A stretch of DNA of 64,000 bases from Bacteroides sp. (GTDB taxonomy: Bacteria; Bacteroidota; Bacteroidia; Bacteroidales; Muribaculaceae), in assembly GCA_014802335.1 (NCBI GenBank), contig JAAVCL010000027.1, forward strand, positions 62,001 through 126,000, written 5' to 3'. The notes below the pieces were generated by a model. It was not told the origin of the DNA and searched no databases. It worked only from the letters and a program-made list of their open reading frames with translations. The position numbers and the translations under genes are program-made. Positions 5,334 through 53,371 of the stretch are shown here, piece by piece (within the stretch, counting starts at the first letter, position 1; each line of letters starts with the position of its first letter).

Positions 5334-5355
5334 TGAAGTCGTTTAAACGACTTCA
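5334..5355. repeat. Leader inverted repeat, copy A (22-bp perfect palindrome)
   Basis: A palindrome with core GAAGTCGTTTAAACGACTTC and no spacer between the arms lies 28 bases before the ABC ATPase ATG. The same arms, with spacers, occur at 43083-43166 and 53323-53371, and a degenerate pair at 47040-47098. The function is unknown. It could be an operator for a dimeric regulator, an RNA hairpin in the leader, or a collapsed REP-like element. Confidence 0.8.
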
Positions 5356-5383
5356 CGTTCTGTTCACGCAATTCTAAATTTAG

Positions 5384-6127
5384 ATGTCGAAGGAAATTAT
5401 CAAAATAGAAAACTTGAAACGCTATTTTAAAGTCGGAGAGGAAACTGTCAAAGCTCTCCGAGGCGTCTCGTTCACAATCTACGAAGGAGAATTCGTAACA
5501 ATAATGGGAACTTCGGGATCGGGAAAATCGACTCTGCTAAACACTTTGGGATGTCTTGACACACCGACCTCGGGGCAGTACTACCTTGACGGCATCCCTG
5601 TAAAGGGCATGGGTAAAAACGAGCGTGCCCGGATTCGAAACAGAAAAATAGGTTTCATTTTCCAAAATTATAATCTTCTTCCCAAAACCACAGCTCTTGA
5701 AAATGTGGAACTTCCTCTTCTGTATAACTCTTCGGTGAGTGCAAAAGAGAGAGCGGAAAGAGCGGAACGCTGCCTGCGTGAAGTGGGATTGGGTGAAAGA
5801 TTATATCACAAAAGCAACCAGATGTCGGGTGGACAGCAGCAACGTGTTGCCATTGCCCGTGCCCTTGTGAACAATCCGGTGATTATTCTCGCCGATGAAG
5901 CAACCGGAAATCTCGATACACGCACCTCTTTCTCCATTCTCACTCTTTTTCAGAGGCTTCACCGTGAAGGAAAAACAATTATATTCGTTACGCACAATCC
6001 GGAGCTTTCACTATATTCTTCAAGAAACATTACATTGCGCGATGGCCGCATAGTCAGCGATGAATATAACCATGACATTCAGTCGGCCGAGGAAGTTTAT
6101 AGAAATCTTCCCGTCGAGAATGACTGA
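5384..6127 (+). CDS. ABC transporter ATP-binding protein (MacB/LolD type)
   Basis: Energises the MacAB-TolC-like pump. The 247-residue ATPase has Walker A GTSGSGKS (42-49), the signature SGGQQ (148-152), Walker B ending D171-E172 and the switch histidine in 'VTHNPE'. It lacks the permease domain that is fused in E. coli MacB; that domain is supplied by the next gene, 100 bases downstream. The 82-base gap before it holds palindrome copy A, so this gene may be differentially expressed from the upstream adaptor gene. Confidence 0.94.
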
Positions 6128-6227
6128 TAAATAGTGCTGATAGGAAATTATAAATCGTCCTCGTGTATTGGCAAAAACACTGTGATGATTATAGATATCT
6201 CATTAGCTTATACTTTAAAAGCTGCTT

Positions 6228-7448
6228 ATGAATTTTCAAAATTTATTTAAAATAGCAATTAAGGCTCTTGGAAATAATAAGATGCGTTGTTTTCTTACGA
6301 TGCTCGGTGTTATTATTGGCGTTGGAGCCGTAATTGCGATGCTTGCAATCGGGCAAGGTTCGAAAAACTCGATTAAAGAGCAGATTTCGGAGATGGGTAG
6401 TAACATGATTATGATTATGCCCGGCGCGGAACGTCGCGGAGGTGTAAGACAAAGCAGCGAAGACATGCAGACTCTTAAACCTGCCGACTATGAAGCAATT
6501 GTTAATCAGGCTTCCGGAATCGCTTACAGTACACCCACCGTTTCATCATCCGGCCAGTGGGTGTATGGTAATAATAACTATCCTTCGCAGGCACAAGGAG
6601 TGAATACTGAATTTCTCAAGATCCGCCAGCGTAACGTGGCCGAAGGAGAAATGTTTACGGAAAACGATGTCAAGACGGCTGCCAAGGTTTGCGTATTAGG
6701 TAAAACCCTTGTTAACAATCTTTTTCCCGATGGTTCCGACCCTATCGGGAAAGTGGTAAGATTCGGGTCAATCCCTCTCACTGTGATTGGGGTGCTCGAT
6801 GAAAAGGGATACAACACAATGGGGCAGGACCAGGACGACCTTGCGCTGGTGCCTTATACAACCGTAATGAAGCGAATGTTGGCCATAGATTATCTTCAGG
6901 GCATCACTCTTTCGGCTGAGAATGAAGATCAGACAGAAATGTTGATTGATGAAATTTCCGATATTTTACGCACCAGTCATAAGCTTAGGGATGGGGAAGC
7001 AGATAATTTTTCAATACGCTCGATGAAGGAGCTTGCTGAAATGATTTCTTCCACTTCTTCAATGATGACTGTTCTTCTGGCTGCGGTGGCCGGCATTTCC
7101 CTGTTGGTCGGCGGTATCGGAATTATGAATATCATGATTGTGAGCGTCACCGAGCGCACACGCGAGATTGGCTTGAGAATGAGTATCGGTGCCACAGGTC
7201 GCGATATTATGACTCAATTCCTTATCGAAGCTATCATTATTTCCGTAACTGGGGGAATTATCGGTATTCTCTTGGGTGCGCTCGCCACGTGGATGATTAA
7301 AATCTTTGTAAACTGGCCTGTGCAGATTGACCCGGGTTCAGTTATTCTTTCGTTCGTGGTTTGCACAATTATCGGTATTATTTTTGGATTCTATCCGGCA
7401 GCAAAGGCATCAAATCTTGATCCGATTGAAGCTATAAGATATGAATAA
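6228..7448 (+). CDS. MacB-like ABC permease (FtsX family)
   Basis: Inner-membrane permease partner of the preceding ATPase. It has 406 residues in the MacB_PCD-FtsX arrangement. One N-terminal membrane helix ('MLGVIIGVGAVIAMLAIG') is followed by a large periplasmic domain (about 45-270) and three C-terminal helices starting at 'MMTVLLAAVAGISLLVGG'. The motif 'VTERTREIGLRMSIGA' is typical of MacB. Its stop overlaps the histidine kinase start by 8 bases, so transport and signalling genes are translationally linked. This suggests that the pump is controlled by, or feeds information to, the two-component pair. Confidence 0.93.
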   Translation: MNFQNLFKIAIKALGNNKMRCFLTMLGVIIGVGAVIAMLAIGQGSKNSIKEQISEMGSNMIMIMPGAERRGGVRQSSEDMQTLKPADYEAIVNQASGIAYSTPTVSSSGQWVYGNNNYPSQAQGVNTEFLKIRQRNVAEGEMFTENDVKTAAKVCVLGKTLVNNLFPDGSDPIGKVVRFGSIPLTVIGVLDEKGYNTMGQDQDDLALVPYTTVMKRMLAIDYLQGITLSAENEDQTEMLIDEISDILRTSHKLRDGEADNFSIRSMKELAEMISSTSSMMTVLLAAVAGISLLVGGIGIMNIMIVSVTERTREIGLRMSIGATGRDIMTQFLIEAIIISVTGGIIGILLGALATWMIKIFVNWPVQIDPGSVILSFVVCTIIGIIFGFYPAAKASNLDPIEAIRYE

Positions 7449-8511
7449 AAATCGATCTTCTAACAAGTCTGGAGCGGTAACAGTAATACTGTTATCGTTC
7501 CTGTTATTTTATTTCCCCTCGGTTGTCAATTTGTTTTCATATCATAAGGGGCCTCCGGGAAGAGACATTGTTAATTTGCTGCTTTCCACAGTATATACAT
7601 TGATTTTCTGTCTCAACTATTTTTTGATTATTCCCAAATCACTTTTCGGAAATGGCAAAAAATATTGGTTTTATGGGTGGAATGTTATCTTTGTAATCGC
7701 AGGTCTGCTTATTATTCCAATTTGGCTTGAAATAAGAGGAAATGTGGATCCTCATTATCCTCACCAGAAGGGTGTGAAATTTATATTCGATTCATTAGTT
7801 TTCTCAATCCGCGATGGTGTGATGATGATTCTGTCGATTGCTCTTGCCTATGCCTTGCAATTTTCGCGGGAAAGAGATAGACTTCAGAATCGTGAACTCG
7901 AGCTTAATGCAGAACGCCGTCAGATCGAACTTCGGAGTCTCAAGATGCAGTTAAACCCGCATTTCTTGTTTAATTCGCTCAATAATATTTATGCACTCAT
8001 CGGAATTTCTTCAGAAAGAGCTCAAGAAGCAGTGCATGATTTGAGCGGAATGTTACGTTATATGATATATGATGCGGCGGCTTCGGGCGTTCCTCTTCAG
8101 AAAGAAATGGAGTTTATCGAAGATTACGTGCGTCTTATGAAGCTCAGGATCTCTCCTGCAACTACATTAACTTGTAAGGTATCGCGTGAAAACACAAATG
8201 GATTGCATATTGCGCCATTGATATTCATGACTCTTGTCGAAAATGCGTTTAAGCATTTCAAACCATTTGAAGGTAAAAGTTTTATATCCATTTCTATTGG
8301 AGTCGTGAATGATAAAGTTGTGTGTGAAGTGATTAATTCTTATGATGTTACGACTGTCGAAGTTGATAAGGAAAATTCAGGGGTTGGAATAAGAAATATT
8401 CACCGACAGCTCGATTTGCTGTATCATGGCCACTCTTCGTTCAGCCTCGAAAAAGAAAACGGTGTTTTTAAAGCCCTCCTCACAATCGACAATATAGCTT
8501 TATGTAAGTAG
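7441..8511 (+). CDS. LytS/YehU-type sensor histidine kinase
   Basis: Membrane sensor kinase of the His_kinase (PF06580) class. About four hydrophobic segments occupy residues 10-145, with no obvious large periplasmic sensor. A short coiled coil ('RERDRLQNRELELNAERR') leads into the phospho-acceptor motif MQLNPHFLFNSLNN with His174. The ATPase domain shows 'LVENAFKHF' and 'GVGIRNIHRQLDLLY'. It overlaps the permease gene and precedes a LytTR regulator, its obvious partner. The signal is not known; sensing of the pump substrate or envelope state is an inference from the operon. Confidence 0.93.
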   Translation: MNKNRSSNKSGAVTVILLSFLLFYFPSVVNLFSYHKGPPGRDIVNLLLSTVYTLIFCLNYFLIIPKSLFGNGKKYWFYGWNVIFVIAGLLIIPIWLEIRGNVDPHYPHQKGVKFIFDSLVFSIRDGVMMILSIALAYALQFSRERDRLQNRELELNAERRQIELRSLKMQLNPHFLFNSLNNIYALIGISSERAQEAVHDLSGMLRYMIYDAAASGVPLQKEMEFIEDYVRLMKLRISPATTLTCKVSRENTNGLHIAPLIFMTLVENAFKHFKPFEGKSFISISIGVVNDKVVCEVINSYDVTTVEVDKENSGVGIRNIHRQLDLLYHGHSSFSLEKENGVFKALLTIDNIALCK

Positions 8512-8583
8512 GGATACCGGGTGCTTCGATTTGTAGTTTAAATAAAGCTTTGACCCCAAAAATAATTTAGAATAATTCGGTTC

Positions 8584-9336
8584 ATGCAGAAAAAAGAAGA
8601 TAGGTTGGAAATTAAATGTGCGATAATAGATGACGAGCCGTTGGCGCTCGGCCTTATAAAAGATTATGTGGAACGAACTCCGTCGCTTATCCTGACAGGC
8701 GAATTTTCTTCCGCATCCGAAGCCTTGCCTTCAATCATGAGTGGTGATTACGATCTTGTTTTTCTTGATATAAATATGCCGGGTTTGACCGGAATTGAAC
8801 TTGGCAAGATGATTCCCTCCGGCACAAGAATCATATATATTACCGCCTACGACAGATATGCCATAGACGGATACAAAGTCAATGCGCTCGATTATCTTTT
8901 AAAACCGGTGAATTATCCTGAGTTTATGGGGGCCGTCTCAAAAGCTTTTGAATGGAAACGTCTCAGTTCGGCTTTTTCTTCCGAGAGCGCCATATCTAAA
9001 AGGTCTGACTCTGCGCCGATGTCAATTATGGTGAAGTCAGACTATAGGCTTGTGCAACTTATTTTGTCAGACATTTTATATGTGGAGGTGAGAGGTGACA
9101 AACTGATTTTCAATCGCGAGGGAGATTCGCCATTAAGTACGCAGATGTCATTAAAGGAAATTGAAGATGTCTTGCCTCCCGATAAATTTATTAAAGTGCA
9201 CAGATCGTTTATCGTTAATATTGATAAAGTGAAAATTGTGGAAAGGAGCCGTATTGTTTTCGGTAAAACATACATTCCTGTATCAGACACACACAAGGTT
9301 GAATTTATGAGGCGCCTGAATATAGCATCAAAGTGA
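8584..9336 (+). CDS. LytTR-family response regulator
   Basis: Cytoplasmic DNA-binding response regulator for the adjacent LytS-like kinase. The receiver domain (about 11-125) has acidic residues DDE at 16-18, phospho-acceptor Asp62 in 'FLDINMPG' and the conserved Lys in 'YLLKPVNY'. The LytTR DNA-binding domain follows from about residue 145, with 'FIKVHRSFIVNIDKV' near the end. The kinase lies 72 bases upstream. The gene ends facing the minus-strand exporter genes. LytTR proteins usually bind paired direct repeats, and none was identified at the operon promoter. Confidence 0.93.
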   Translation: MQKKEDRLEIKCAIIDDEPLALGLIKDYVERTPSLILTGEFSSASEALPSIMSGDYDLVFLDINMPGLTGIELGKMIPSGTRIIYITAYDRYAIDGYKVNALDYLLKPVNYPEFMGAVSKAFEWKRLSSAFSSESAISKRSDSAPMSIMVKSDYRLVQLILSDILYVEVRGDKLIFNREGDSPLSTQMSLKEIEDVLPPDKFIKVHRSFIVNIDKVKIVERSRIVFGKTYIPVSDTHKVEFMRRLNIASK

Positions 9337-9400
9337 CTGTTAGACATTTCAGGCTCCAAAAAATTTTCAGGCCAGGATATATGTTCCAAGACTCCATCCA

Positions 9401-9892
9401 CTAAAGTTGACGCGTGGCCTGAAATGAGATCTTCTGCATAGCAAACATAGGAATCGTTGCCCCGATCACCATTGCAAGAAGGATAAAGAATGTGGTGAGG
9501 CCATTATTGGCAAATAGATAAAAATAGTGCAGAAAGTCATTTTCTCCACCGTAATACACGCACATCACAAGCGCGGCAAACGTTTTGTAGGCATAAATGC
9601 CTGGAATCATGGGTAACAGTGCGGGGTAGAGGCAAGTTTCCGAGGGAATCTTGGCATGGGGAGAAATCAGCACGGCTATGATTCCGATAAGCAACGCTGC
9701 GCAGAAACTTGCAATCACGATATGCACACCACACCATGTCATCAGGCTGAAACGCAGAGAATGGCCTAAGGCCGCGATTACCGCACAATAGATATAAGCA
9801 CGTTTGGGCGGATTGCTTATGGCTGCAAATCCTATGGCCGCCAAGGCAGCAAACAATCCATCCTGTATGAGTTGAATCAACATTTCGTTCAT
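9401..9892 (-). CDS. Threonine/serine exporter, small subunit (ThrE_2 / DUF3815 family)
   Basis: This 163-residue protein has about five hydrophobic helices ('LIQDGLFAALAAIGFAAIS' near the start, 'LLPMIPGIYAYKTFAAL' in the middle). It matches the C-terminal half of the Corynebacterium ThrE exporter, which in many bacteria is a separate protein. The other half is encoded immediately upstream (9941-10720, 48 bases away), so together they form a complete split exporter for L-threonine and L-serine. A sequence TAAACGGCTTCA at 9921-9932, one base off the leader-repeat arm, lies 28 bases before its start; this may be chance. Confidence 0.85.
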   Translation of the reverse strand: MNEMLIQLIQDGLFAALAAIGFAAISNPPKRAYIYCAVIAALGHSLRFSLMTWCGVHIVIASFCAALLIGIIAVLISPHAKIPSETCLYPALLPMIPGIYAYKTFAALVMCVYYGGENDFLHYFYLFANNGLTTFFILLAMVIGATIPMFAMQKISFQATRQL

Positions 9893-9940
9893 AATTCTTT
9901 GTCTTTTAAGTGGAATCTTTTAAACGGCTTCAATGTGTTC

Positions 9941-10720
9941 TCAGAACATGGACAAGTGCATTACTGCCATCCCCGCGCATAGTCCGATCGACAGGCAGCA
10001 CAGTATAATTGCAGCATGCATCAGCCGGCCGAAGGCACACAAATAATGCCCGTCCAGAAAATCACAGAACGAATTGATAAACGGGATTCCCGGCACGAGA
10101 TAGAGAACGCTTGTTGCAACCGCTATCTGTGGGGTGGAGCCGATATCAGTCATGCCGATTGCCGCCGTAATCAGTGAAGAAATAAAAGCACACGTTAACA
10201 CTGTAAGCTTAAAATTTATTCCGGCCGAACCCATAATCTGCTTCAGGCGGAATCCGACGAACGTTGCGATAAATACTGCCAGCATAGCAACCAAATCGCC
10301 CGAGAATAGGCGGCAGAACGATGCATTGGCAATTGATACCAAAATTACTAATATCCAGGGGTGAACACTGCTGCATTTATATATGCGCGGCAACACTTCG
10401 TGAGCTTCCCAGAATGATACGCGCCCGTCTGCTATCTGCCAAGACAGGCGACTTAAGTCTGTGATTCGGGAAAAGCTGATTGGCATTTCTCTGATACCCA
10501 CAACCTCTGTGCATTGTTCTGTTTCGCTCACAACCGTAATATGGATATGCCGTGGAAGAATACTGAATTCTACCTTCATCCCCATTTTCCCGGCTATTCT
10601 CTGGATATTTTTTTCAAGCCGGATACAAGTACATCCACTTCCGAAAAGTTCAACCGCATACTCCGACAGAAATTCTGCCGTCTCTTGCGCTGTCGGCCTT
10701 CTACTTTCATATATTTGCAT
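9941..10720 (-). CDS. Threonine/serine exporter, large subunit (ThrE / DUF1212 family)
   Basis: This 259-residue protein has an amphipathic N-terminal cytoplasmic part with the family-like 'AVELFGSGCTCIRLEKNIQRIA'-type segment. About five membrane helices follow, including 'VATSVLYLVPGIPFINSFCDFLDG', close to the diagnostic DUF1212 motif. It is the N-terminal portion of a classical ThrE, with the C-terminal portion in the next gene. It probably exports threonine/serine using the proton gradient. It lies 28 bases downstream of the TPR-LuxR regulator gene and is probably co-transcribed with it. Confidence 0.86.
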   Translation of the reverse strand: MQIYESRRPTAQETAEFLSEYAVELFGSGCTCIRLEKNIQRIAGKMGMKVEFSILPRHIHITVVSETEQCTEVVGIREMPISFSRITDLSRLSWQIADGRVSFWEAHEVLPRIYKCSSVHPWILVILVSIANASFCRLFSGDLVAMLAVFIATFVGFRLKQIMGSAGINFKLTVLTCAFISSLITAAIGMTDIGSTPQIAVATSVLYLVPGIPFINSFCDFLDGHYLCAFGRLMHAAIILCCLSIGLCAGMAVMHLSMF

Positions 10721-10748
10721 AGGTGTTTCAAAAGTTATTACAGTCCTT

Positions 10749-12404
10749 TTATGTTATAACATTCTTATGCCGAAAAGTTCCGTCTGTTTGCTTATTCTCT
10801 TTCAGTGTGCGCAAGATTTCCCTTATGTAACTGTCGGTACTTTCAGTAATATTGATCTTTTTACGTAAAGAATATTTTATGGCTTCTATGGTGCGGATTG
10901 AACGTTGCGTTATTTCGGCTATCTCACCGTTTGTTAGGCCGGCGGCAATAAGACAACACATATCGAGTTCTGCTTTTGTCAGATCAGGATGCCGAATACT
11001 GATAGTCTCTCTAAGCATCTTACTTTCTTTGTTTAGAAGAATATCATAACGTTTTATGCTTTTAGCCTCACGCCCCATCTCTATTAGACTCAGTCGTATG
11101 GCTGCCACTCGTTCTTCACTCGGCTTATGGGTATTGTCAATCTCTTTCTGTATCTCTCGGAGTCCGCTGTCTATCTTAGCGATACGTAGGGTCGCTTTGC
11201 ATAATTGAGTGCTGTGCGATTCAATCTGCTCTTCAAGTTCAAGGAGTTTTGCAGTGTGGCTGCTGTCGAAGCTGCTTATGTTTTCCTCCAGGTCGTTTAT
11301 TCGGTTCTGGGATTTGCGTCTGTTGCGCAGCAGCATTATGATCCATAAGCCGAGCACACTCAGGAGGGTGGCGGTCACAATGATCGTGACATGCCAGATA
11401 TCCCGGGTCTTGTCCAGGTCTTTCTCCACATTTTCAAGCTGTTCTCGATTAGCTTTCCCGGCTAATATGCCGTTCAGGTCAGAACGGTCTGATTTTGCCA
11501 CGCTGTCCGAAAGAATCATCGCATCCTGCATGTAGGCTAACGCTTCGCTTTCCTTGCCAACTCCGCGCAATGCCACCGAAAGTGTCAGGAGATAATCTTT
11601 CTGCACAGCCGGGTCATGGATGCTTTCAGCTAAGGCACGGTGCTCACCGAGGATTTTTAAGGCTCCCTTGAAGTCTCCCCGATTGTTCATTATCTCCGCT
11701 AAGTTGACCACTATGATAAGTTTGTTGGGGTTGAGTGTGTTCTGCCGGAGTCCCTCATTATATAATCTTATGGCGCTCAGTGTATCACCTGCAAGCAGAT
11801 GAAGGGCGCCCCCGTGCCCCAGCCAGATAAGTTTCACAGAGGAGGAATTGCCTGTCGTGTCGGTTTTCATCCACTCAGTCATCGCGCCGGGAATATTGTT
11901 TTGGGCTTTTTTCAGAATGGATTTGGCTCCATATAGGGCACTCCTTTTATTGTTGGCGGAGATAGGATGTACTTTCTTCCAGCGTGGATTCATGATTATC
12001 GATTCTGCCTTGTTCAGAATTTCTTCGGCATCCTCGAAGTCATTCAATGTGCAATAGATGTCGTTCAATCCTATGCAGGCGCCCACATCCCAATATAGAA
12101 GCGAATCGGCTTTCGGCAATGACAAAGCATATTTGAGGGTGGCGATTGTCTCGTCATAACGGCGCAGGGCCATCTGCGCCCGGCCTTTGAAGTCGAGGGC
12201 CATGAGTTTGTGAGATTCAGCAGCATCAGCTTTTGAGATGACTGAATCGCATGTCTTTATTAGGGATATGCAGTCTCCCCCCTCGAACAATCTGACAAAT
12301 CTCGCTCCCAGGGCCCGGGTTTCTTTATAGTCTGGATTGGAACCCAAGCAACGTAGGAGGCATAAAAAGAATATTGCAGTAGTAGCGAGAATCTTTTTCT
12401 TCAT
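10749..12404 (-). CDS. TPR-containing membrane regulator with C-terminal LuxR-type helix-turn-helix
   Basis: The 551-residue protein has a signal/anchor ('ILATTAIFFLCLLRCLG'), an exported TPR-like region (about 30-335), one membrane helix ('VTIIVTATLLSVLGLWIIMLL', about 345-365), a coiled-coil linker and a cytoplasmic HTH. The HTH contains 'LTKAELDMCCLIAAGLTNGEIAE' split by helix breaks, and 'RSIRTIEAIKYSLRKKI'. This architecture is common in Bacteroidota one-component regulators, in which periplasmic TPRs sense and the LuxR domain binds DNA. It is divergent from the large secreted protein gene at 12670, a plausible target. No ligand can be deduced. Confidence 0.85.
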   Translation of the reverse strand: MKKKILATTAIFFLCLLRCLGSNPDYKETRALGARFVRLFEGGDCISLIKTCDSVISKADAAESHKLMALDFKGRAQMALRRYDETIATLKYALSLPKADSLLYWDVGACIGLNDIYCTLNDFEDAEEILNKAESIIMNPRWKKVHPISANNKRSALYGAKSILKKAQNNIPGAMTEWMKTDTTGNSSSVKLIWLGHGGALHLLAGDTLSAIRLYNEGLRQNTLNPNKLIIVVNLAEIMNNRGDFKGALKILGEHRALAESIHDPAVQKDYLLTLSVALRGVGKESEALAYMQDAMILSDSVAKSDRSDLNGILAGKANREQLENVEKDLDKTRDIWHVTIIVTATLLSVLGLWIIMLLRNRRKSQNRINDLEENISSFDSSHTAKLLELEEQIESHSTQLCKATLRIAKIDSGLREIQKEIDNTHKPSEERVAAIRLSLIEMGREAKSIKRYDILLNKESKMLRETISIRHPDLTKAELDMCCLIAAGLTNGEIAEITQRSIRTIEAIKYSLRKKINITESTDSYIREILRTLKENKQTDGTFRHKNVIT

Positions 12405-12480
12405 GTAAATTTAACGTTATGTGAAAATCAATAGTATGGAATTCTAAGTTTGTATGCCCGGTATTACATTTTTGTATTTA

Positions 12481-12515
12481 CTTAGGTTGTAATATGTTAC
12501 ATTATCTAAGTGTGA
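12481..12515. promoter_or_regulatory. Candidate operator in the divergent intergenic region
   Basis: In the 265-base AT-rich gap between the TPR-LuxR regulator and the secreted protein gene there is a nested inverted repeat. ACTTAG near 12479 pairs with CTAAGT near 12505, enclosing TGTAA-TATG-TTACA. Its position suggests a binding site for the adjacent regulator, but the sequence alone does not establish this. Confidence 0.35.
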
Positions 12516-12669
12516 TTTAAGTGCGTAGAAATATAATTTTAGGAGCTATTTAGGTGCTTATGAAGTACGATGCTTTTTCTTATAAATTCTTAAATTTACC
12601 ACGTCGAAAATGATACAAGTGTAAAGTCAAATTCGATTACTAATATTTCTAACTTTAAAACCTTTTCGC

Positions 12670-15000: not shown

Positions 15001-15010
15001 GTTAATAAAT

Positions 15011-17328: not shown

Positions 17329-17337
17329 TGCAGTTTT

Positions 17338-43082: not shown

Positions 43083-43166
43083 TGAAGTCGTTTAATTTTT
43101 TTCAAGTCTAAGATTTATTAAGATTTTGAGCGAATTTTGATTGCGTAAAAATTTTAAACGACTTCA
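43083..43166. repeat. Leader inverted repeat, copy B (84 bp)
   Basis: Arms TGAAGTCGTTTA (43083-43094) and TAAACGACTTCA (43155-43166) are perfect 12-bp complements around a 60-base AT-rich centre. The centre contains CTAAGATTTATTAA (43108-43121), shared at 13 of 14 bases with copy C. It ends 40 bases before the HAD phosphatase ATG. Confidence 0.85.
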
Positions 43167-43857: not shown

Positions 43858-43941
43858 GTCTGAAAATTTTCAAACTTCAATCTCGCTTCTCAATATAAAA
43901 CTCCTGATATAAATGTAACTCCTGATAAAAAGGTTGCATAT

Positions 43942-45036
43942 TTAATAAAGATATTCATATTCGGAAGCAATTTTTTTCCACGCATACTCAGCACGTGCGT
44001 TATCGGTTGCCGCATGGCCATCAAGGCCTTCGGAGATAATAAGTTTACGTAGACTTTCGGAATCGTTGAAGTAATATGCATTTCCGTGGGTCGTTTCCCG
44101 GTTATATATTACATCGAAAGCCAGAATCGGCATGTTAAAGAACATCGCTTCCACAAGCGATGGATTTGTACCTCCCGATCGATGACCATGCACATATCTG
44201 CGTGCGTTATTCCTGAGCGTGTACAAAACGTCAGGATCATAAATGGCGCGCAGCAGGTGGATATTCTTTTTATGCTTGTATTTCTCGTAAAGATTTCTTG
44301 AATAATCGCTATGATTCCAATTGCCGACAAATACCAATTGCGTTTCTGTTGATGAATATGCCTCCAGTGTGATGTGGCAGTTATTTTCAGGCTCTATGCG
44401 ACAGATGCTCAGATCATATTCCTGTCGTTTAATTGAGTAATAATCAAGCATGGCCTGTTGGCGTTGTTCATTAATGGGTCGAAGTGAATGATCTCCTCCG
44501 TAGGCAATCAGATGCGCGTCGCGTCCATAGTGTTCCTTTACATAATCCTGAATTCCCTTGTTGTCCGAGATAATTGCATCAGCCCAACGAATACAGCATC
44601 CTAACGAGAATTTTAAAAAGCGTTTGGCTGCCGGCTTCCATTTGTCGCGCAAATGTTCGAGTCCATCAATGTTTACAATAGTTTTGGCTTTAGATAGCAT
44701 TTTGAAAACCGGAAGAAAGATACAGCCGGAAACCCCGAGAATCAATATGGCATCATAGCCTCGTATGGCCTTGATCATAGATAGAATGTCGTAGGGCACA
44801 CTCATCACTCCGTGGGCTCTGAGTGAAATATATTTCAGTTTGCAGCCCTTGTAGCTGCTAAGTTCGCTATGGCCTGAGATGGTGTCCATATCGGGCCGGC
44901 TGCAAAATACGGTATATTCCACCCCCGGTCGGCGGTGAGTGATGATATTATCCACAAGAGTTTCAAATCCACCATATTGCGGAGGAACCCCCTGCGACCC
45001 AATTATAGCGACTCTTTTTGGATTCTCAATAGTCAT
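43942..45036 (-). CDS. Glycosyltransferase with DUF1972 domain (rhamnosyltransferase-like)
   Basis: The 364-residue GT-B enzyme begins with 'RVAIIGSQGVPPQYGGFETLVDNI', the signature of DUF1972 glycosyltransferases such as the pneumococcal Cps2T beta-1,4-rhamnosyltransferase. The C-terminal nucleotide-sugar domain includes 'HGHRSGGTNPSLVEAMFFNMPILAFDV', with the conserved Glu. With rfbA and rfbC in the same block, transfer of rhamnose to a lipid-linked repeat unit is a reasonable inference. It is the last gene of the minus-strand polysaccharide cluster. Confidence 0.88.
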   Translation of the reverse strand: MTIENPKRVAIIGSQGVPPQYGGFETLVDNIITHRRPGVEYTVFCSRPDMDTISGHSELSSYKGCKLKYISLRAHGVMSVPYDILSMIKAIRGYDAILILGVSGCIFLPVFKMLSKAKTIVNIDGLEHLRDKWKPAAKRFLKFSLGCCIRWADAIISDNKGIQDYVKEHYGRDAHLIAYGGDHSLRPINEQRQQAMLDYYSIKRQEYDLSICRIEPENNCHITLEAYSSTETQLVFVGNWNHSDYSRNLYEKYKHKKNIHLLRAIYDPDVLYTLRNNARRYVHGHRSGGTNPSLVEAMFFNMPILAFDVIYNRETTHGNAYYFNDSESLRKLIISEGLDGHAATDNARAEYAWKKIASEYEYLY

Positions 45037-45120
45037 ATCGTCTAATTTTGAACACTTACTTGTTGCCCGGACTTTTTGCTTATGAAAAATGCTATGATGA
45101 ATTATTCAGTTTGAATATTT

Positions 45121-46368
45121 CTAAAAACTTGAAGAAAGGAAGTTCCGTTTCCCATATATTGAATATTTGAACACCATTGCGAACGCCATTATCATCCAAC
45201 CGAGCTGCATGTTGTAATCGGCACTAAGTTGAACTGTCATTGCAAAAGTAACATACGACATCCAATCTCGTTTGATAATAGTTACGAAACCTATCGCAAT
45301 CCAAAATGCCAGCGAACAGATAATCCCATAGTTATACCAGATGCTGAAGATTCCGGCAAATCCACGTTCATTTACATCACATGGACGGGCCTCAAGGTCT
45401 CTTTGGTCTGCATCGACTCCATGGCCGGTGATGATTTGCATATCGGAGCCGGCAAGAGCTCTTGCGCCTCGAAGCGTAGGAACTAATCTTGCTGATGCAC
45501 TTGTGTCGGCTTTGATTATTTCCTGATCGTTCAGACTCGTAACTGCCGTTATGGTGTTGAGGACACGCTCAACGTTAGTCGGCCTTTTTAATGGAACGAG
45601 AAATGCCGTTATCAGAAGTGCGACAACCAAGATAAGGATATAGGGAATATTCTTACGCGTGATGTAAGGCAACAGACACAGCGGGCCCATGATGTAGGCA
45701 GATGCGTTGTCGGTAGTAAACAGGGTCCATAAATAAGAAATCCACAGCCAGGGGTGGAGGCGAATACTTGTCAGGAGAGTTGCTGCCGGGTTTCTATGTC
45801 TCAGTGTGCGCGTATAGAAAAATAGGAGAGTGGAAAGAATAACGGTGGTGTGCGAAGGCTCTGCGGTCAATGAATTGAGTTTCCAAGGGTTGTGATAATT
45901 TATGGCTTTTAAGGGAACAGGCAGATTCATCAATACGCACAATTGTTGAATTACCAACACCACCGCAAATGTGTAAATGATCACGCGTATTAACTTTAGA
46001 AACAGGCCGCTTCCCAACCCGGATATTTTTACCAACCGCGCAAGCATCATGAAGTAGACGCAATATGCGCATGTGAAAAGCATTGTAGATAGCCTCACGG
46101 TGTCCGGATGAAAAAAGAAAGGTGCGAACAATACCGTGATTATAACCGTACACAGTGGCAAATCAATGCGCGGAATAAATGTGCGGGCGTCTTTTATAAG
46201 TAAACCAAATGGAGAAAGACACATTCCGACGTTCAGCAAGATATTCATATTGTCGTGTCCCTGCATGAAACTCGGATTTATACACAGTAAAACAAGTCCG
46301 ACCACGGTGAGTCGGACTGTTAAGGAATTAGTGGAATCGTGTATATGTCTGTCTGTCTCTCTTTTCAC
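45121..46368 (-). CDS. Putative O-antigen/exopolysaccharide polymerase (Wzy-like)
   Basis: The 415-residue protein has about ten or more membrane helices and one larger hydrophilic loop near residues 285-345 ('RLVPTLRGARALAGSDMQIITGHGVDADQ'). This is the usual topology of Wzy/O-antigen ligase proteins, which share little sequence. The assignment rests on topology, the 'GHG' loop and position between a glycosyltransferase and dTDP-sugar genes. It would polymerise repeat units on the periplasmic face. O-antigen ligase is the main alternative. Confidence 0.7.
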   Translation of the reverse strand: MKRETDRHIHDSTNSLTVRLTVVGLVLLCINPSFMQGHDNMNILLNVGMCLSPFGLLIKDARTFIPRIDLPLCTVIITVLFAPFFFHPDTVRLSTMLFTCAYCVYFMMLARLVKISGLGSGLFLKLIRVIIYTFAVVLVIQQLCVLMNLPVPLKAINYHNPWKLNSLTAEPSHTTVILSTLLFFYTRTLRHRNPAATLLTSIRLHPWLWISYLWTLFTTDNASAYIMGPLCLLPYITRKNIPYILILVVALLITAFLVPLKRPTNVERVLNTITAVTSLNDQEIIKADTSASARLVPTLRGARALAGSDMQIITGHGVDADQRDLEARPCDVNERGFAGIFSIWYNYGIICSLAFWIAIGFVTIIKRDWMSYVTFAMTVQLSADYNMQLGWMIMAFAMVFKYSIYGKRNFLSSSF

Positions 46369-46464
46369 TATATGCTGTATTTCCTTTTTCTGATTACATA
46401 GAAAGAATCCTGTTAAATTAAGGACTCTTACATCATGCAGCAGTAAGAAAAGTTGGTGTTGACC

Positions 46465-47025
46465 TCACTTGTCGTATTCAAAAGGGGAAACGAAATCTCG
46501 GAACAGGGGGTGAAGCGTATCCTTTTCAGAAAGTGTGGCTTTATCAAGTTCAATTCCCCAGTCAATTCCCAATGATGTGTCGATGATTGAAATGCCTCCG
46601 TCATGATCGGGAGCATAATAATTATCGCACTTGTATTGAAATATTGCCGTATCGCTCAGCACCGCGAAGCCATGAGCAAACCCTCTAGGAATGAAAAATT
46701 GAAGGTGATTTTCTTCACTTAGTTCAACGGCCACGTGCTTTCCGTAGGTGGGAGAACCCTTCCGAATATCCACGGCAACATCAAGTACTTTGCCACGCAC
46801 GCATCTCACCAGTTTTGCTTGTGCAAAGGGAGGTCGTTGAAAATGAAGCCCGCGCATTACTCCGCGGCCGGAACACGATTCATTATCCTGCACGAAATCT
46901 ACCTGAGCCACCTCCGTATCGAATACTTTCTTATTGTAACTTTCAAAAAAATATCCGCGGCTGTCCTTAAAAACTTTTGGTTCGATAATGACAACTCCTT
47001 CGATATCTGTTTTTATTACGTTCAT
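46465..47025 (-). CDS. rfbC: dTDP-4-dehydrorhamnose 3,5-epimerase
   Basis: Third enzyme of dTDP-L-rhamnose synthesis. The 186-residue cupin-fold protein has 'FKDSRGYFFESYNKK', 'VQDNESCSGRGVMRGLHFQ' with the catalytic His, 'KLVRCVRGKVLDVAVDIR' and 'FIPRGFAHGFAVLSD', all typical. The downstream rfbD and rfbB genes that usually accompany it are absent from this window. A degenerate copy of the leader repeat lies 14 bases before its start. Confidence 0.95.
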   Translation of the reverse strand: MNVIKTDIEGVVIIEPKVFKDSRGYFFESYNKKVFDTEVAQVDFVQDNESCSGRGVMRGLHFQRPPFAQAKLVRCVRGKVLDVAVDIRKGSPTYGKHVAVELSEENHLQFFIPRGFAHGFAVLSDTAIFQYKCDNYYAPDHDGGISIIDTSLGIDWGIELDKATLSEKDTLHPLFRDFVSPFEYDK

Positions 47026-47039
47026 GATTAATACAGATT

Positions 47040-47098
47040 TGAATCGTTGGTGTGTAGTTATACAGTAATGTGATTGCTAAATTTTTGAGACGACTTCA
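47040..47098. repeat. Leader inverted repeat, copy D (degenerate)
   Basis: TGAATCGTT (47040-47048; one base shorter than TGAAGTCGTT) and GACGACTTCA (47089-47098) frame 40 AT-rich bases, immediately before rfbC on the minus strand. Spacing and position fit copies B and C, but the left arm is weak. The same gap also shares TAGCGTTCAAGAT (47122-47134) with the 194-bp element (1221-1233). Confidence 0.45.
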
Positions 47099-47143
47099 TT
47101 AAATAATTTTGAACTAACAGTTAGCGTTCAAGATTAGTGCATC

Positions 47144-48040
47144 TCACATATCGATTGAATTTTGAGAGCTGCTTATAACCTTCATAAGGTATTTGCCATA
47201 ATTATTCTTCATCATCGGGCGGGCAATCTCTTCTATCTTTTCTTTTGAGATCCATCCGTGTTGATAAGCAATCCCTTCAAGGCATCCTATTTTCAGGCCT
47301 TGACGTTTCTCAAGAACCTCTACGTATATCGATGCCTCGGCAAGTGAATCGTGGGTGCCGGTGTCAAGCCATGCAAAACCACGCGGAAGAACTTTTACCT
47401 TGAGTTCGCCATCTTTCAGGAACTCTTGATTGACTGTTGTAATCTCAAGCTCTCCGCGTGCGGATGGTTTGATATTTGATGCAACGTCAACAACCTTATT
47501 CGGGTAAAAGTAAAGTCCCACAACTGCATAGTTGCTTTTAGGGTTCTTTGGCTTTTCCTCTATTGAAAGACAGTTGCCGTTTTTGTCAAACTCGGCCACT
47601 CCATACCTTTCCGGATCGTCGACCCAATATCCGAACACGGTTGCTTTCTTGTTTTCCTCGGCGTCTTTCACTGCATCCACCAGAAGGGTAGAGAAGCCGG
47701 CCCCATGAAAGATATTATCACCCAATACAAGGCACACGCTGTCGTCGCCTATGAAATCTTTCCCAATAATGAAGGCCTGGGCGAGTCCGTCGGGAGATGG
47801 CTGCTCGGCATATTCCAGATTAAGACCATAGTCCGAACCGTCTCCCAGCAAGCGCTTGAACCCCGGCAAATCAGATGGTGTCGAGATAATCAGTATATCC
47901 CTTATCCCGGCGAGCATTAGAGCCGACAGGGGATAATAGACCATCGGTTTGTCATAAATTGGAAGAAGTTGTTTGCTAACTCCCTTTGTAATTGGATATA
48001 AGCGGGTGCCGGAACCGCCTGCCAAAACGATACCTTTCAT
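47144..48040 (-). CDS. rfbA: Glucose-1-phosphate thymidylyltransferase
   Basis: First enzyme of dTDP-sugar synthesis: glucose-1-phosphate plus dTTP to dTDP-glucose. The 298-residue protein has the nucleotidyltransferase motif '[20 protein letters not shown]', '[10 protein letters not shown]', 'VLGDNIFHG' and '[19 protein letters not shown]'. Length and motifs fit RmlA. Its ATG overlaps the Wzc-like gene's stop (ATGA), so it is translated as part of the export operon. Confidence 0.96.
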
Positions 48041-50538
48041 TTCTTCTTGTTTTTTGATTTCGACTTTCCGTCTTCTTCGTCATCATCACTGTAGTACTTG
48101 CTGTCTGAATGGTAGCCGTAACCATATCCATAACCATATCCGTAACCATAGCCATAACCATAGCGGTAGCCATACGAGTTTCCGGGGTCGATCGTTCCGT
48201 TCAGAACCAAAGACATGTTGGGGAAAGTCTTCTTGTCATACAGCTCATCAATCATTGGAAGCATCTGGAGGTCGAGAACTCCGGCACGCGCCACAAACAG
48301 TGTCATGTCGGAATACTTGCTGACAATTGAAGCATCCGCAACAATTTCCACCGGCGGGCAGTCAATGAAGATGTAGTCGTAGCGCTCTTTCAGATAATTG
48401 ATCAGATGACTCAGACGGTCGCTGAACAACAGCTCTGTCGGGTTGGGAGGAGTCGTACCAACAGGTATTACTGCAAGATTCTTGGTGTTTTCAACGTGCT
48501 GGGTAATAGCGTCTATGTCGTTGGTGCGGTTGGCAAGATAATCAGAAATACCATCTTTATTCTTGTCAACATACTTACTGAGTGACGATTTGCGCATGTC
48601 AAGATCGACAACAATAGATTTTTTACCCTTTATGGCAAAAGTCTTGGCAAGATTAAAGCATATAAATGTCTTTCCTGACCCCGGATTAAACGAAGTCAGC
48701 ATTATCACCTTTGTATTCGGGTCGTTGGCTATCATGAACTCAATATTGGTTCGCAGCATACGGAACGCCTCGTTAATGGAATTTCGGCTGTTCTCTTTGA
48801 CTGCCACCAGTGGCGTCGGCGACTGGTTACTCTTAAGTTTATTGAGTTTGAGTTTCTGCTTTTTGTTGTGAAGTGGCAATTCTCCGGCCAACGGAATGTG
48901 AAGATCCTTTATATCTCGGCGCCCGCGCACCACATGGACTGTCAGTTCGCGTTGATAAATAATCAAGGCCGGAATAACAAGACCAATTGCGAAAGCGATC
49001 AACATGATGTTTCGGCGATGTGGAGCAACCGGAGTCGTTACCTTTTCGGGCTCACGCACGATTCTTGTGTTGTAGGAGGTGAAGACCTGATTCAGCTGAT
49101 TCTCTTCCCGCTTCTGAAGTAGATAGAGATACAGGGTTTCCTTTACTTTCTGCTGACGCTCCACGCTGAGAAGATACTTGGCCTGTTTGGGATTGGAGGC
49201 AATCTTTGATTGGGCGGACCCGGTGAGATTTTCCTGACTGCGGATTTGCTCGTTCAGCAACACAAGTTCATTATCGATTGAGGCTATAAGAGCTCCACGC
49301 ATTGCTGTGAGGGCCGCATCCATCTCCGCGACAAGCGGATTGCTTTCGGAACTTTGCGAAACAAGACTGTTGCGTTCAAGAATCTTGCTGTTATACTGTG
49401 ATATTTGAGTCGAGAGACTCATGTTGTCAATTCCTGCATTTGTGGGCAGAAGTTTGTGATTATTGTCCGAATTGCGCAGATAGGTGCGGATATACTTCGC
49501 CATGTACTCCTGGTTTCTGAGGTCTTTGAGTGCAAGCGAAGCCTGAGATGCCTGATTCATATAGAGCGAAGCTGCGGCCTCAATGTCGGGCACCATATTG
49601 GCACTCTTGAATGTTGATATGTCGTTATCAACCGAACCCAACTCTTCTTGAAGAAGTTGAACTCGCTCATCAATAAATTTACTTGAGTTGTCGGCCAATG
49701 TGCGTTTGTCGCGCATCCAGCGGTCGTTATAACTGGAAACCAGCTGATTCAGAACGTCGGCTGCTCTTTCGGGTGAAGAATCGGTCTGAGTCATGTTCAC
49801 AAGATTCCACGAACGTTCGTCAGTGGTAACGCTCAGACCGTTATTGAATAGTTTTGCGGCAAGTTTTATTGGAAGATGCTGAACGTTTATTTCGTGGTAG
49901 ACGGTTGTCTCCAGGCCTTCTGCCGGAGAAACCACCAGCGGTCCGAAAGGAGTCTTCACCGGTGTGCCGAAACGTCCCTTTATAACTTTGTCACCATAAT
50001 TCTTTTCTTCTATTATGATATCGGACACTTCGAACTCGCCATTATCGTTGAATGAAATTTTAAACTTGATATTCGAATCTTCCGTCACTTCGGGCATATC
50101 CACCTGAATCGGCAGATTAGAGCCATAAAGCTGATAGTCGCGGAATCGTCCTTCGGCCGTGTAGACTGTCTGAAGATTAAGCTTCCTTACAACATCGCGC
50201 ATAAGGTCGGGCGATTGAATTATCTGCACCTCATCGTTAAGGCTATTGTTTGTGCTGGTTAGACCTAAATCTTCAAACATTGCATCTGTTCCCGAGACCG
50301 AACGACCCTGAGAGTCGGTTTTTATGAGGATGGATGCGGTGGTCTGATAAATAGGAGTGGTCATCTTGATTTTGATGAATCCTATGGTCAAGCATACTGC
50401 TATCGAAATCAGAAACCAATACCAATTGGCAAGACAGAGATAGAGATATTCTTGAAGACGTATGCCATACTTCTTGAGATTAGCCTGTTTCTGGGGCTGC
50501 TCTTTATTATCAGTATTATTTTCTATTATGGTAGCCAT
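48037..50538 (-). CDS. Polysaccharide co-polymerase with BY-kinase domain (Wzc-like tyrosine autokinase)
   Basis: Controls chain length and export with the Wza-like protein. The 833-residue inner-membrane protein has an N-terminal helix, a Wzz domain, a long periplasmic coiled-coil region (about 280-500), a second helix ('[18 protein letters not shown]') and a bacterial tyrosine kinase domain. The kinase has Walker A GSGKT (620-624), A' 'VVDLDMRK' and Walker B 'YIFIDCPP'. The C-terminal tail is a run of alternating Tyr-Gly (11 Tyr, coded at 48112-48174), then a Tyr pair and a charged Lys/Asp tail. The Tyr cluster is the expected autophosphorylation site but is unusually regular. Confidence 0.94.
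48112..48174 (-). repeat. Tyr-Gly dipeptide-coding repeat tract in the kinase tail
   Basis: These 63 bases encode Y-G-Y-R followed by (Y-G) units, 11 Tyr in 21 codons, written with mixed TAT/TAC and GGT/GGC/GGA codons in a loose 6- to 12-base period. Length changes by multiples of six would keep the frame. Confidence 0.85.
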
Positions 50539-50568
50539 TCTTTAAGTGTGTTAGCACGAATAGTTTTT

Positions 50569-51384
50569 TTACTTCACAATCAGCACAGCTATCGTTGTGG
50601 CAAAAGAAGCAATGGAAATCCAGAAAGTCGGAGTCAGAACAGAGTTCCCGTTGGGGGTTGACATTCGAGCCTTAGTCGAATTAGGCTCAACATAAATCAC
50701 ATCATTCTGCTTGAGATAATATACGGGCGACTGTGTTATCTTGTCTCCCGAATTGAGATCCACCTCATATACTTTCTGCATGCCGTTGTCCTCACGCAAA
50801 ACGCGCACATTATTTCTTTTGCCGTATATGGTGAGATCGCCGGCCGCACTCAGTGCTTCCAGTATTGTGAAATTATCGCTGTCAAAATTATAAAGTCCGG
50901 GGTTCGTAACTTCGCCCATCACCGAAACGCTAAGATTCAGATAATCCACGGTAACTATCGGATTCTTGGCAAGATCTCGACTTATCAGTTCACGCCTGAT
51001 ATATTCGGCCACCTCTTCACGATTCATTCCTGCAATGTGCAGCTTTCCTAATACCGGGAAATTGATGTCTCCGTGGCTGTCAATGATATAGGGGGTGATA
51101 TTGCCGGAATAGGTTGCGGTGGATTTCCCGGTTGAATCGAAATTATTAAGGCGCGTTTCAGCCACCGGAAGATTATACAACGAATTTAGTCTTGCATCCG
51201 ATGTGCTTACGATTATAGTGATTTTATCATCGGGTTGCAGCTTAATGGGAGTAAGTAAGGGCAAAACATTCTCTTTTCCCGGAGTTAAATCCTGAAAATA
51301 TGAGATATCCTTAGATGATGAGCAGCTACTTACAAGCAAACTCACGCCCGCACAAAATGCAATCAGATTTTTAATTTGTTTCAT
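50569..51384 (-). CDS. Polysaccharide export outer-membrane lipoprotein (Wza-like)
   Basis: The 271-residue protein has a lipobox (VSSC, Cys21), a polysaccharide-export domain ('LQPDDKITIIVST', 'GDINFPVLGKLHIAGMNREEVAEYI') and an SLBB domain ('VSVMGEVTNPGLYNF', 'LEALSAAGDLTIYGKRNNV'). It ends in a hydrophobic helix ('FWISIASFATTIAVLIV'). That helix may replace the Wza outer-membrane helix. With the Wzc-like protein 30 bases downstream it forms the export channel. It is first in the operon, with a promoter at 51431-51462. Confidence 0.93.
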   Translation of the reverse strand: MKQIKNLIAFCAGVSLLVSSCSSSKDISYFQDLTPGKENVLPLLTPIKLQPDDKITIIVSTSDARLNSLYNLPVAETRLNNFDSTGKSTATYSGNITPYIIDSHGDINFPVLGKLHIAGMNREEVAEYIRRELISRDLAKNPIVTVDYLNLSVSVMGEVTNPGLYNFDSDNFTILEALSAAGDLTIYGKRNNVRVLREDNGMQKVYEVDLNSGDKITQSPVYYLKQNDVIYVEPNSTKARMSTPNGNSVLTPTFWISIASFATTIAVLIVK

Positions 51385-51430
51385 GGTCAGGTGATTGTTA
51401 AATCGCTTCTGATGTTTGGATATAGAGTCA

Positions 51431-51462
51431 CAAAATTACAAATTAAAAACTATTTATGCAAT
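51431..51462 (-). promoter_or_regulatory. Minus-strand promoter for the polysaccharide operon
   Basis: Read on the minus strand: ATTG (51462-51459), a 20-base spacer and TAATTTTG (51438-51431). Transcription would start near 51424, giving a leader of about 40 bases. One mismatch in the -33 box. Confidence 0.65.
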
Positions 51463-51532
51463 TATGTGGAAGAAATTAAAGAACATAACGAATAAACATA
51501 TTTAATATAGTTATCTTTACCGGCCATAGCGT

Positions 51533-51563
51533 TTTGAACTGTCGGAGTTTTTTGCTAAATTTG
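51533..51563 (+). promoter_or_regulatory. Bacteroidota-type promoter for fumarase
   Basis: TTTG (51533-51536), a 19-base spacer and TAAATTTG (51556-51563), a full consensus match, with a predicted leader of about 24 bases before the ATG at 51594. Confidence 0.85.
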
Positions 51564-51593
51564 CCATTATTATCGAAATAAAAATCCATTCTA

Positions 51594-53237
51594 ATGGCTA
51601 CAAAACCCTTTCACTACCAGGAAATGTTTCCCCTGGGTCCGGATACCACAGAGTATCAATTGATTACAAAAGACTACGTAAAAGTTGAGAATTGGAATGG
51701 CCACGAGATGCTTGTGGTTGATCCCGAGGCTTTGACTCTGATTGCAAATGTTGCTTCCCATAATTGCTCGTTTATGTTGAGACGTGAACATAACGAGATG
51801 GTGGCGAAGATTCTTGCTGATCCCGAAGCTTCTGAAAATGATAAATTTGTAGCTCTGACAATGTTGCGTAACGCCGAGGTCGCTGCCAAGGGCGTTCTGC
51901 CGTTCTGTCAGGATACAGGCACTTCAATCTGTACCGCTTACAAGGGTCAGCAGGTGTGGACCGGATGTGATGATGAGGAGAAAATTTCTCTCGGGGTTTA
52001 TAAAACTTATACCGAAAACAATCTCCGATATTCGCAGAATGCTCCTCTAAACATGTATGAAGAGGTTAATACAGGTTGTAACCTCCCCGCCCAAATTGAA
52101 ATTCATGCCACTGAAGGTGACGAATATAAGTTCTTATTTGTTGCAAAAGGTGGTGGCTCGGCAAATAAAACTTATCTCTATCAGGAAACAAAAGCAATTC
52201 TAAACAAGAAAACTCTTGTTCCTTTCCTGATTGAGAAAATGAAGAGTCTCGGAACTGCTGCTTGTCCTCCTTATCACATCGCTTTTGTTATCGGTGGAAC
52301 TTCAGCCGAGGCTAATCTTGCCGCTGTCAAGAAAGCTTCTGTTAAATATTACGATAATCTTCCCACTGAAGGTAATGAATATGGCCATGCATTCCGCGAT
52401 ATCGAACTGGAGAAGGAACTGCTCGAGGCTGCTCAGAATCTTGGCCTTGGTGCTCAATTCGGCGGTAAATATTTCGCTCACGATGTGAGAGTGATCCGTA
52501 TGCCACGACATGGTGCTTCCTGCCCGGTGGGAATGGGTGTAAGCTGTTCGGCCGACCGCAATGTGAAAGCTAAAATCAATCGCGATGGCCTTTGGATTGA
52601 AAAACTCGATGAGTTCCCCGGTGAGCTTATCCCCGAAGAGATGAGAAACGTGGGTGAAGGCGAAGTTGTAAAAGTTGATCTTAACCGCCCCATGGAGGAA
52701 ATTCTTGCTCAGCTTGATAAATACCCGGTTTCAACTCGGCTCTCGTTGAAAGGTACTATAATTGTGGGTCGTGACATTGCTCACGCCAAGATAAAAGAAC
52801 GCCTGGATGCCGGCGAACCGATGCCTCAATATCTTAAAGATCATCCCATTTACTATGCAGGCCCGGCTAAAAAGCCCGAAGGTATGCCCTCCGGCTCTTT
52901 TGGTCCCACCACTGCCGGCCGAATGGATTCTTATGTTGACCAATTCCAGGCTGCCGGCGGATCAATGGTGATGATTGCAAAGGGTAACCGTTCTCAGCAA
53001 GTCACTGATGCCTGCCATAAACATGGCGGGTTCTATCTCGGCTCTATCGGCGGTCCGGCTGCTATTCTCGCCAAAAATTCAATTAAGAATGTGGAACTCC
53101 TTGAATATCCTGAGCTCGGAATGGAGGCTATTTGGAAAATTGAAGTTGAGGATTTCCCGGCATTTATCCTCGTTGACAACAAGGGCAATGATTTCTTCAA
53201 GCAGATCAAGCCTCGCTGTCCGATGGACTGTAAATAA
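51594..53237 (+). CDS. Class I fumarate hydratase (iron-sulfur)
   Basis: Interconverts fumarate and malate; in Bacteroidales it works in the reductive branch from oxaloacetate to succinate. The 547-residue protein has the FumA/FumB layout. The N-terminal domain has '[16 protein letters not shown]' (first Cys ligand region), '[14 protein letters not shown]' and '[20 protein letters not shown]', and the C-terminal domain has '[30 protein letters not shown]'. These cysteines are expected to hold the oxygen-sensitive [4Fe-4S] cluster. It is monocistronic, with a perfect promoter and a hairpin after the stop. Confidence 0.95.
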
Positions 53238-53273
53238 TCTCTCCCAATCTAATAATTGAGATTTTATCCCCTT

Positions 53274-53304
53274 ATTGTCCGGCCTTTTCGAAAGTCCGGA
53301 CAAT
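53274..53304 (+). terminator. Hairpin terminator after fumarase
   Basis: ATTGTCCGG (53274-53282) pairs with CCGGACAAT (53296-53304). CCCC and GGGG extend the pairing outside a TT mismatch. The T-run is short. Confidence 0.65.
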
Positions 53305-53322
53305 TTGGGGTTATTAAAGAAG

Positions 53323-53371
53323 TGAAGTCGTTCATCATTTTACTAAGATTAATTAAATGTAAACGACTTCA
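53323..53371. repeat. Leader inverted repeat, copy C (49 bp)
   Basis: Arms TGAAGTCGTTCA (53323-53334) and TAAACGACTTCA (53360-53371) match at 11 of 12 positions. The 25-base centre contains CTAAGATTAATTAA (53343-53356), nearly identical to copy B. It ends 18 bases before the lepA ATG. Confidence 0.82.

Follow-up and report, generated by a model that had tools for sequence, protein, structure and literature searches.

The 64,000-nucleotide stretch of Bacteroides sp. DNA analysed here (GCA_014802335.1, contig JAAVCL010000027.1, positions 62,001 to 126,000; hereafter the window) contains short inverted repeats ahead of several unrelated genes, which a preliminary description had taken for a family of leader elements. 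Our analysis indicates that these repeats are very probably copies and deletion remnants of a miniature inverted-repeat transposable element (MITE) of the IS5 family that is moved in trans, and not gene switches. The parent element is 193 bp long, runs from GAAGTCGTTTAAAC to GTTTAAACGACTTC with GAAGTCGTTTAAAC terminal inverted repeats, and folds along its entire length (RNA z = -10.4). Intact copies also carry a hairpin whose apex lies about 63 nt inside the element end; G·A motifs occur there in tandem, and the stem covaries strongly.

Copy number and target duplications of the repeat family

The genome from which the window comes comprises 2,092,495 bases in 30 contigs and is 83.6% complete. 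In this genome, the half-site of the repeat had 172 matches at no more than one mismatch (71 of them exact), compared with 26 for the reversed pattern, and the 22-base palindrome TGAAGTCGTTTAAACGACTTCA was found at 30 places at no more than three mismatches, with none for the reversed control. A spacer-limited pattern detected no two complete, exact, non-overlapping half-sites within 30 bases of each other. At least 66 pieces of the 193-bp element were identified by blastn (40 of 160 candidates scored), among them 12 full-length copies (193-196 bp, at least 94% identity) and one more cut by a contig end. Nine contigs (C1, C5, C9, C11, C12, C19, C20, C21 and C27) ended inside MITE copies, indicating that the repeat breaks the assembly and that the true copy number is probably higher. 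A plasmid search with the 195-base element gave no match.

Pairing of half-sites in the fetched stretches gave 61 rows, of which 26 were exactly 20 bp, 13 were 192-194 bp and two were 236 bp, the others being scattered, and the partial deletions formed a graded series of 27, 30, 47, 70-72, 82, 102 and 134 bp. Nine rows were dropped as overlapping or spurious, leaving 52 curated copies, which represent the fetched stretches and not the whole genome; those in C1 and C6 (L002 and L016) are near-identical duplicates and hence not independent. The proposal that the repeats are a dispersed family able to collapse to a bare palindrome was borne out. The duplicated segment (L002 in C1, L016/L017 in C6) has palindromes on both sides of a gene for 258 aa, and perhaps reflects two co-assembled strains.

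Among the 52 curated copies, 27 were flanked by an exact 3-bp target duplication, whereas shuffling gave 5.7 on average and never more than 15. Duplications were present at 9 of 15 full copies (shuffled mean 2.3), 6 of 11 intermediates (shuffled mean 1.2) and 12 of 26 bare palindromes (right-flank shuffle mean 3.2, maximum 9 in 10,000), and the observed count was reached in none of 10,000 shuffles for any of these length classes. Other species of the genus, in which the arms were mostly different (TGAAGTTG...CAACTTCA, TGAACTCG...CGAGTTCA), had target duplications at 11 of the 13 palindromes examined (19 places in total). Since the bare palindromes are flanked by duplications as well, they also mark insertion events.

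Cognate IS5 elements

Loci with PF13340 (IS5-type) were collected from the family and the genus, and 55 were checked for ends; by the criteria used, 18 of these had terminal repeats and a 3-bp target duplication, with lengths of 649-1271 bp. Scanning the 55 loci for GAAGT-type ends gave six positives, four of which, all from the same genus, had both ends (L352, L359, L362 and L364). Three of them (L352, L362 and L364; 959, 959 and 957 bp) are intact insertion sequences (ISs) with GAAGTTGTYTAAACT ends and full-length transposases, and together with the shorter L359 they differed from the end class of the window by one or two of the first 14 bases. L352 was flanked by ATC on both sides. In the window's own genome, a decayed transposase gene (L335:1341-1601) adjoined an IS-type end, GAAATCGTTTAAACTTTTTT, with a MITE copy directly next to it; this relic could be aligned with the L362 transposase across an internal deletion (E = 2e-38), the PF13340 score being below the cut-off for the relic and over it for L362. 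Six related IS transposases all scored over the cut-offs of NCBIfam IS5 (NF033580), PF13340 and PF01609. Ends of MITE classes were also shared by PF13340 ISs at L275 (GAGTGTGTTTACTTTT), L276 (GAAACTGTTTAAA) and L278 (GAGAGTGTTTGAATTTAAA), the last having no matching flank.

Based on the 3-bp target duplications and these cognate IS5 elements, we consider the repeats to be a transposable element, and an IS transposase of this type would have mobilised the MITE in trans. One other candidate mover, a PF01609 transposase of the same genome (L274, a single element), was rejected, its CACAATGCGGTTCAAATAA ends being unrelated to the repeats.

Origin of the bare palindromes

The bare 20-bp palindromes are best read as deletion scars between two GTTTAAAC ends. 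Both ends of the element terminate in the self-complementary GTTTAAAC, so that 8-bp direct repeats face each other at the foot of the long hairpin, and slippage or imperfect excision between these repeats would delete the interior and leave a perfect palindrome. Nearly precise excision of Tn10 reportedly proceeds in a similar way, by deletion between short repeats inside the inverted ends, with a palindromic remnant and the target duplication left behind. The window repeats share with such footprints a palindromic remnant that retains the duplication, but are set apart by its being a 20-bp MITE scar that recurs many times within a single genome.

The palindrome might instead be the minimal mobile unit, two joined ends copied as such by the transposase, as could be expected from the exactly 20-bp length of half the curated copies (26/52, 12 with target duplications) and from the palindromes at 9 places in G307 and 5 in G316, most with their own arm sequence. 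However, graded partial deletions exist, the joint falls exactly at the 8-bp repeat, and transposon ends without intervening room should be poor substrates for a transposase. We therefore regard copying of the 20-mer as improbable and favour deletion in place.

Several observations weigh against the proposal of a trans-mobilised MITE decaying by deletion. Exact 3-bp duplications were lacking at 25 of the 52 curated copies, L359, L362 and L364 were without matching 3-bp flanks, and no intact autonomous copy was found in the window's own genome as assembled (83.6% complete). The collapse palindrome predicted for another end class occurred at 4 places in 4 of 297 genomes (none for the reversed control), one of the four having matching TTA flanks by eye.

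Copies in the window

The features of this family in the window are as follows.

1091..1284, plus strand: complete MITE with ends of a second class, AAGTAGCTACGAATAATTAAT, AAT/AAT flanking repeat (by eye), apex hairpin present
1158..1185, plus strand: apex hairpin of the 1091-1284 element, GAAGGAG-CATAC-TTTC-GTATG-CGACTGA, forming the apex in the RNA fold
5335..5354, no strand: copy A, bare palindrome GAAGTCGTTTAAACGACTTC, MITE scar, no matching 3-bp flank
43084..43165, plus strand: copy B, 82-bp internal-deletion derivative, AAT/AAT flanks, apex hairpin deleted
47087..47098, minus strand: copy D, lone degenerate half-site with 2 mismatches, not identified as an element
53324..53370, no strand: copy C, 47-bp derivative, more decayed, no matching 3-bp flank

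The preliminary description had listed four inverted repeats of TGAAGTCGTTTA. Those at 5334-5355 (A), 43083-43166 (B) and 53323-53371 (C) are such repeats, and the gaps between their right edges and the ATGs (5384, 43207 and 53390) are 28, 40 and 18 bases, respectively, as had been stated. The fourth (D, 47040-47098) was not confirmed, having the right half-site only, with 2 mismatches, no inverted repeat of this kind and no similarity to the element. Half-sites were above chance in the window, with 15 matches at no more than two mismatches, whereas 100 shuffles gave 6.3 on average and at most 12. Copy A is two element ends joined at one GTTTAAAC box. For the first 60 nt, copy B matched a full element of the same genome at 93%, after which the alignment jumped to the last ~25 nt of the element (88%). 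The motif CTAAGATT(T/A)ATTAA is common to the spacers of B and C. The preliminary description was right to place B in one family with A and C; C itself, short and decayed with one mismatch in its left arm, gave no blastn match to the element, could be aligned with it only by forced global alignment with large gaps, and was placed by its ends and a CTAAGATTAATTAA stretch. The genes named beside the copies, for an ABC-type ATPase, a HAD-type phosphatase, lepA and rmlC/rfbC, were recovered, the best NCBIfam models for the ABC-type ATPase beside copy A scoring below their cut-offs.

The 194-bp element at 1091-1284, which had been overlooked, belongs to a different end class (AAGTAGCTACG). Its 22-nt inverted repeat (1090-1111/1264-1285) is perfect and includes one flank base, its RNA fold has z = -11.2, and across its middle (1133-1232) it is 66% similar to the 193-bp element. 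Its plan is that of the other core-bearing elements described below, with a TTTC loop. It lies 14 nt past one stop codon and 23 nt ahead of the ATG of an L-serine ammonia-lyase gene.

Position of the copies relative to genes

Using gene calls from simple open reading frame scripts, 46 of the 52 curated copies were intergenic, with 33 in codirectional, 9 in divergent and 2 in convergent gaps and 2 at an edge. This distribution among gap types fits that of the window's intergenic bases (p = 0.35). In codirectional gaps, the start codon was closer than the stop for 16 of 33 copies (p = 1.0); the intergenic location itself may reflect selection against insertions within genes. The lepA leader was compared in 30 loci, the window's own included, fetched from 36 genomes with a match. 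The palindrome was absent from the 170 nt upstream of all 29 other lepA genes; four of these had single half-site-like matches, none paired and three inside the tail of the upstream gene, and at least five, by eye, had the same upstream gene end as the window. Even scatter and absence at orthologous leaders, here those of lepA, had been set beforehand as refutation tests, and both went against a preference for leaders. Palindromes at L145 and L044, considered as an orthologous pair, were rejected as such, having 22 bp in common and flanks without similarity.

No sign was found that the repeats act as operators or riboregulators of downstream genes. That they are kept for such an effect might be argued from the position of copies A-C, 18-40 bases before ATGs, and from the symmetric arms of some palindromes, e.g., GGC/GCC, but the lack of bias towards starts, the copies in divergent and convergent gaps, the lepA comparison and the target duplications beside many palindromes make it very improbable, and the duplications point to a transposable element. 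Also very improbable, as judged from the flanks and ends, is a relation to repetitive extragenic palindromic (REP) or bacterial interspersed mosaic element (BIME) repeats spread by a RAYT transposase of the single-strand HUH type, for although the palindromes are short, numerous and mostly intergenic, and a folded strand is conserved in the long copies, REP/RAYT repeats are not known to have target-site duplications, which are present here, and the ends seen here are common to DDE-type IS5 elements.

Architecture of the sub-terminal hairpin

In intact copies, a hairpin of about 100 nt is predicted to start just inside the element end, its conserved apex (hereafter the core) starting about 63 nt from that end. 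Sufficient flank was available for 92 distinct core sites. An inverted repeat enclosed the core at 79 of them, and by eye these repeats fall into about a dozen sequence classes; the core lay 61-71 nt from the left end in 71 of the 79, the other 8 probably being inner stems or composites. In the 36 elements with both end repeats and a target duplication, the distance between left end and core was 61-66 nt in 35 cases and exactly 63 nt in 24, while the length of the right arm varied. Several longer elements had a second core, reversed, near the other end.

The core was also found in 7 of the 18 autonomous-type IS5 copies with end repeats and duplication, five of them with a core at both ends, facing inward. 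In these ISs, searched at offsets of 55-85 only, the distance between the called end and the RGGAG box was 68 nt for 8 of 12 cores and 71-73 nt for the other four, whose called end takes in a few flank bases. Both ends of four of these ISs were folded. The seven core-bearing ends gave imperfect hairpins with energies from -46.5 to -67.1 kcal/mol, and the one end without a core gave -19.3 kcal/mol. An inner 2x2 G·A loop was present in all seven core-bearing ends and a second loop in five, and the arms differed between the two ends of one IS with the shape being kept.

Distribution and covariation of the core

By similarity, the element was found in 75 of 297 genomes of the family, the window's own included (two candidates scored per genome), which represent 14 of 30 genera. 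About eight genomes gave near-full matches; in the rest, the matched part was mostly positions 39-123, very often 63-100, and not the ends. The pattern GAAGARGGAGNNNNGCGNGCNNNNYGACYGATGA matched at least 117 stretches in genome contigs; the 80 titles among the matches listed were all from Bacteroidales groups, except three contigs from two Verrucomicrobiales metagenome-assembled genomes (MAGs). In these two MAGs (L163, L165 and L173) the apex hairpin was present, and L163 had ends AGACTGTTTGCAAAA with the core 62 nt in, the usual distance, and no matching 3-bp flank. The pattern also matched two viral contigs; these, from IMG/VR (L272 and L273), carry a core-bearing MITE with the same flanks, possibly carried by phage or possibly lying in host DNA within the contig. 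With a looser pattern, 395 Bacteroidota genomes (389 outside the order) gave G000 and one partly paired match elsewhere, the reversed control giving two. Rfam 15 had no match at gathering score in the window and 17 loci, and at E values up to 1 in 10 loci of the same genome it gave four matches below gathering score, none inside an element.

In 63 non-redundant sequences, 89.7% of 1,323 stem cells were paired, compared with 67.7% after shuffling and 38-43% when slid, and double-change cells in the apex stem numbered 340 versus 114 in shuffles. The remaining covariation measures were not or hardly reached by shuffles, apart from one given below. Stem positions had been left free in the search pattern, while the G·A/A·G doublets were fixed by it, so that the invariance of the doublets is built in; independent support for them comes from the similarity-selected copies, among which L140 was an exception at the inner doublet, and from the printed IS ends. 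The doublets were separated by a covarying R-Y pair (A-T 31, G-C 27, G-T 5, A-C 0). In the outer helix, untouched by the pattern, G·T was favoured over A·C wobbles (89 versus 22 of 693 cells), indicating that one strand folds, namely the one on which the wobbles read G·T. At one outer-helix pair (-17/50, columns 6 and 73 of alignment A1), A·C opposition was seen in 31 of 63 sequences. As DNA, the 34-nt core folded into the inner stem only, on either strand (-4.1 and -3.7 kcal/mol).

Possible role of the core

We tentatively suggest, with a confidence just short of even, that the core is an undescribed structured transposon motif, with tandem sheared G·A pairs placed about six helical turns (63 nt) inside the ends, that selection has retained both in autonomous IS5 elements and in MITEs that have traded their outer ends for those of many different ISs. 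It would be a cis signal in single-stranded form, read by a common protein, and would let changing transposases serve the MITEs. Folded as single-stranded DNA or RNA, it would act in cis, to the benefit of the element and not of the neighbouring gene; that it serves the mobility or persistence of the element itself we consider somewhat less likely than not, though likelier than the insulator role considered next.

Alternatively, the core might be an insulator at the RNA level: transcripts entering through a core-bearing end would carry the folding orientation and could be cut, or translation or transcription be stopped. The inward-facing cores of two-core ISs, each at its own end, and the preference for G·T over A·C are in keeping with this, but orientation relative to codirectional genes showed no clear bias (19 same, 10 opposite, p = 0.14; 49 of 72 elements placed), and MITEs retain the hairpin without having a gene to protect, which favours a role in mobility or persistence. 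We consider an insulator unlikely.

Further observations limit this picture. With 7 of 18 IS5 copies bearing it, not every such transposase needs the hairpin; the apex was not seen in the 130-nt ends of the cognate ISs (by eye, for L352 also by script), arguing that the transposase itself does not require it. As for covariation, 16 pairs showed changes on both sides, a count reached by 65 of 500 shuffles.

Comparison with known elements

MITEs with IS5-type ends have been described in Porphyromonas gingivalis, namely BrickBuilt, MITE239 and MITEPgRS/464 (PMC4596501). Like the window family, they are non-autonomous multi-copy elements of Bacteroidales with terminal repeats common to IS5-family ISs, but their end sequences are different and BrickBuilt and 464/PgRS contain internal tandem repeats; the available part of that account describes neither a covarying apex hairpin nor collapse to a bare palindrome, and the word hairpin does not occur in it (PMC4596501). 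The window repeats are thus a new family of a kind already known. With IS5-family ISs (NCBIfam NF033580), the elements examined here share transposases over the cut-off, end repeats and 3-bp target duplications, but those with the core (7/18) are distinct in having sub-terminal hairpins of ~100 nt with a conserved apex ~63 nt from the end. No published account of a sub-terminal hairpin in IS5 elements or MITEs was found, as judged mostly by titles and the starts of abstracts, and the sharing of this hairpin by different end classes may be new, although the library is incomplete and novelty unproven.

What resembled a regulon of palindromic operators is thus very probably debris of mobile elements, a trap for motif-based regulon prediction in Bacteroidales. 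A conserved, covarying hairpin across IS5-type elements with unrelated ends provides a handle on single-strand structure in a DDE transposon.

Further core-bearing elements

In the window's own genome, at least two further end classes (AAGTAGCTCTTAGAAATTAGC and AAGTAGTTGCTAAAAATTAATG) with the apex hairpin were observed (L336-L340; C5, C7, C9 and C12). At L217, two like-ended MITEs of the GAGCCAGTTTACTAA class lie 697 bp apart, forming a composite-like structure of 880 bp in total with TTA on both sides.

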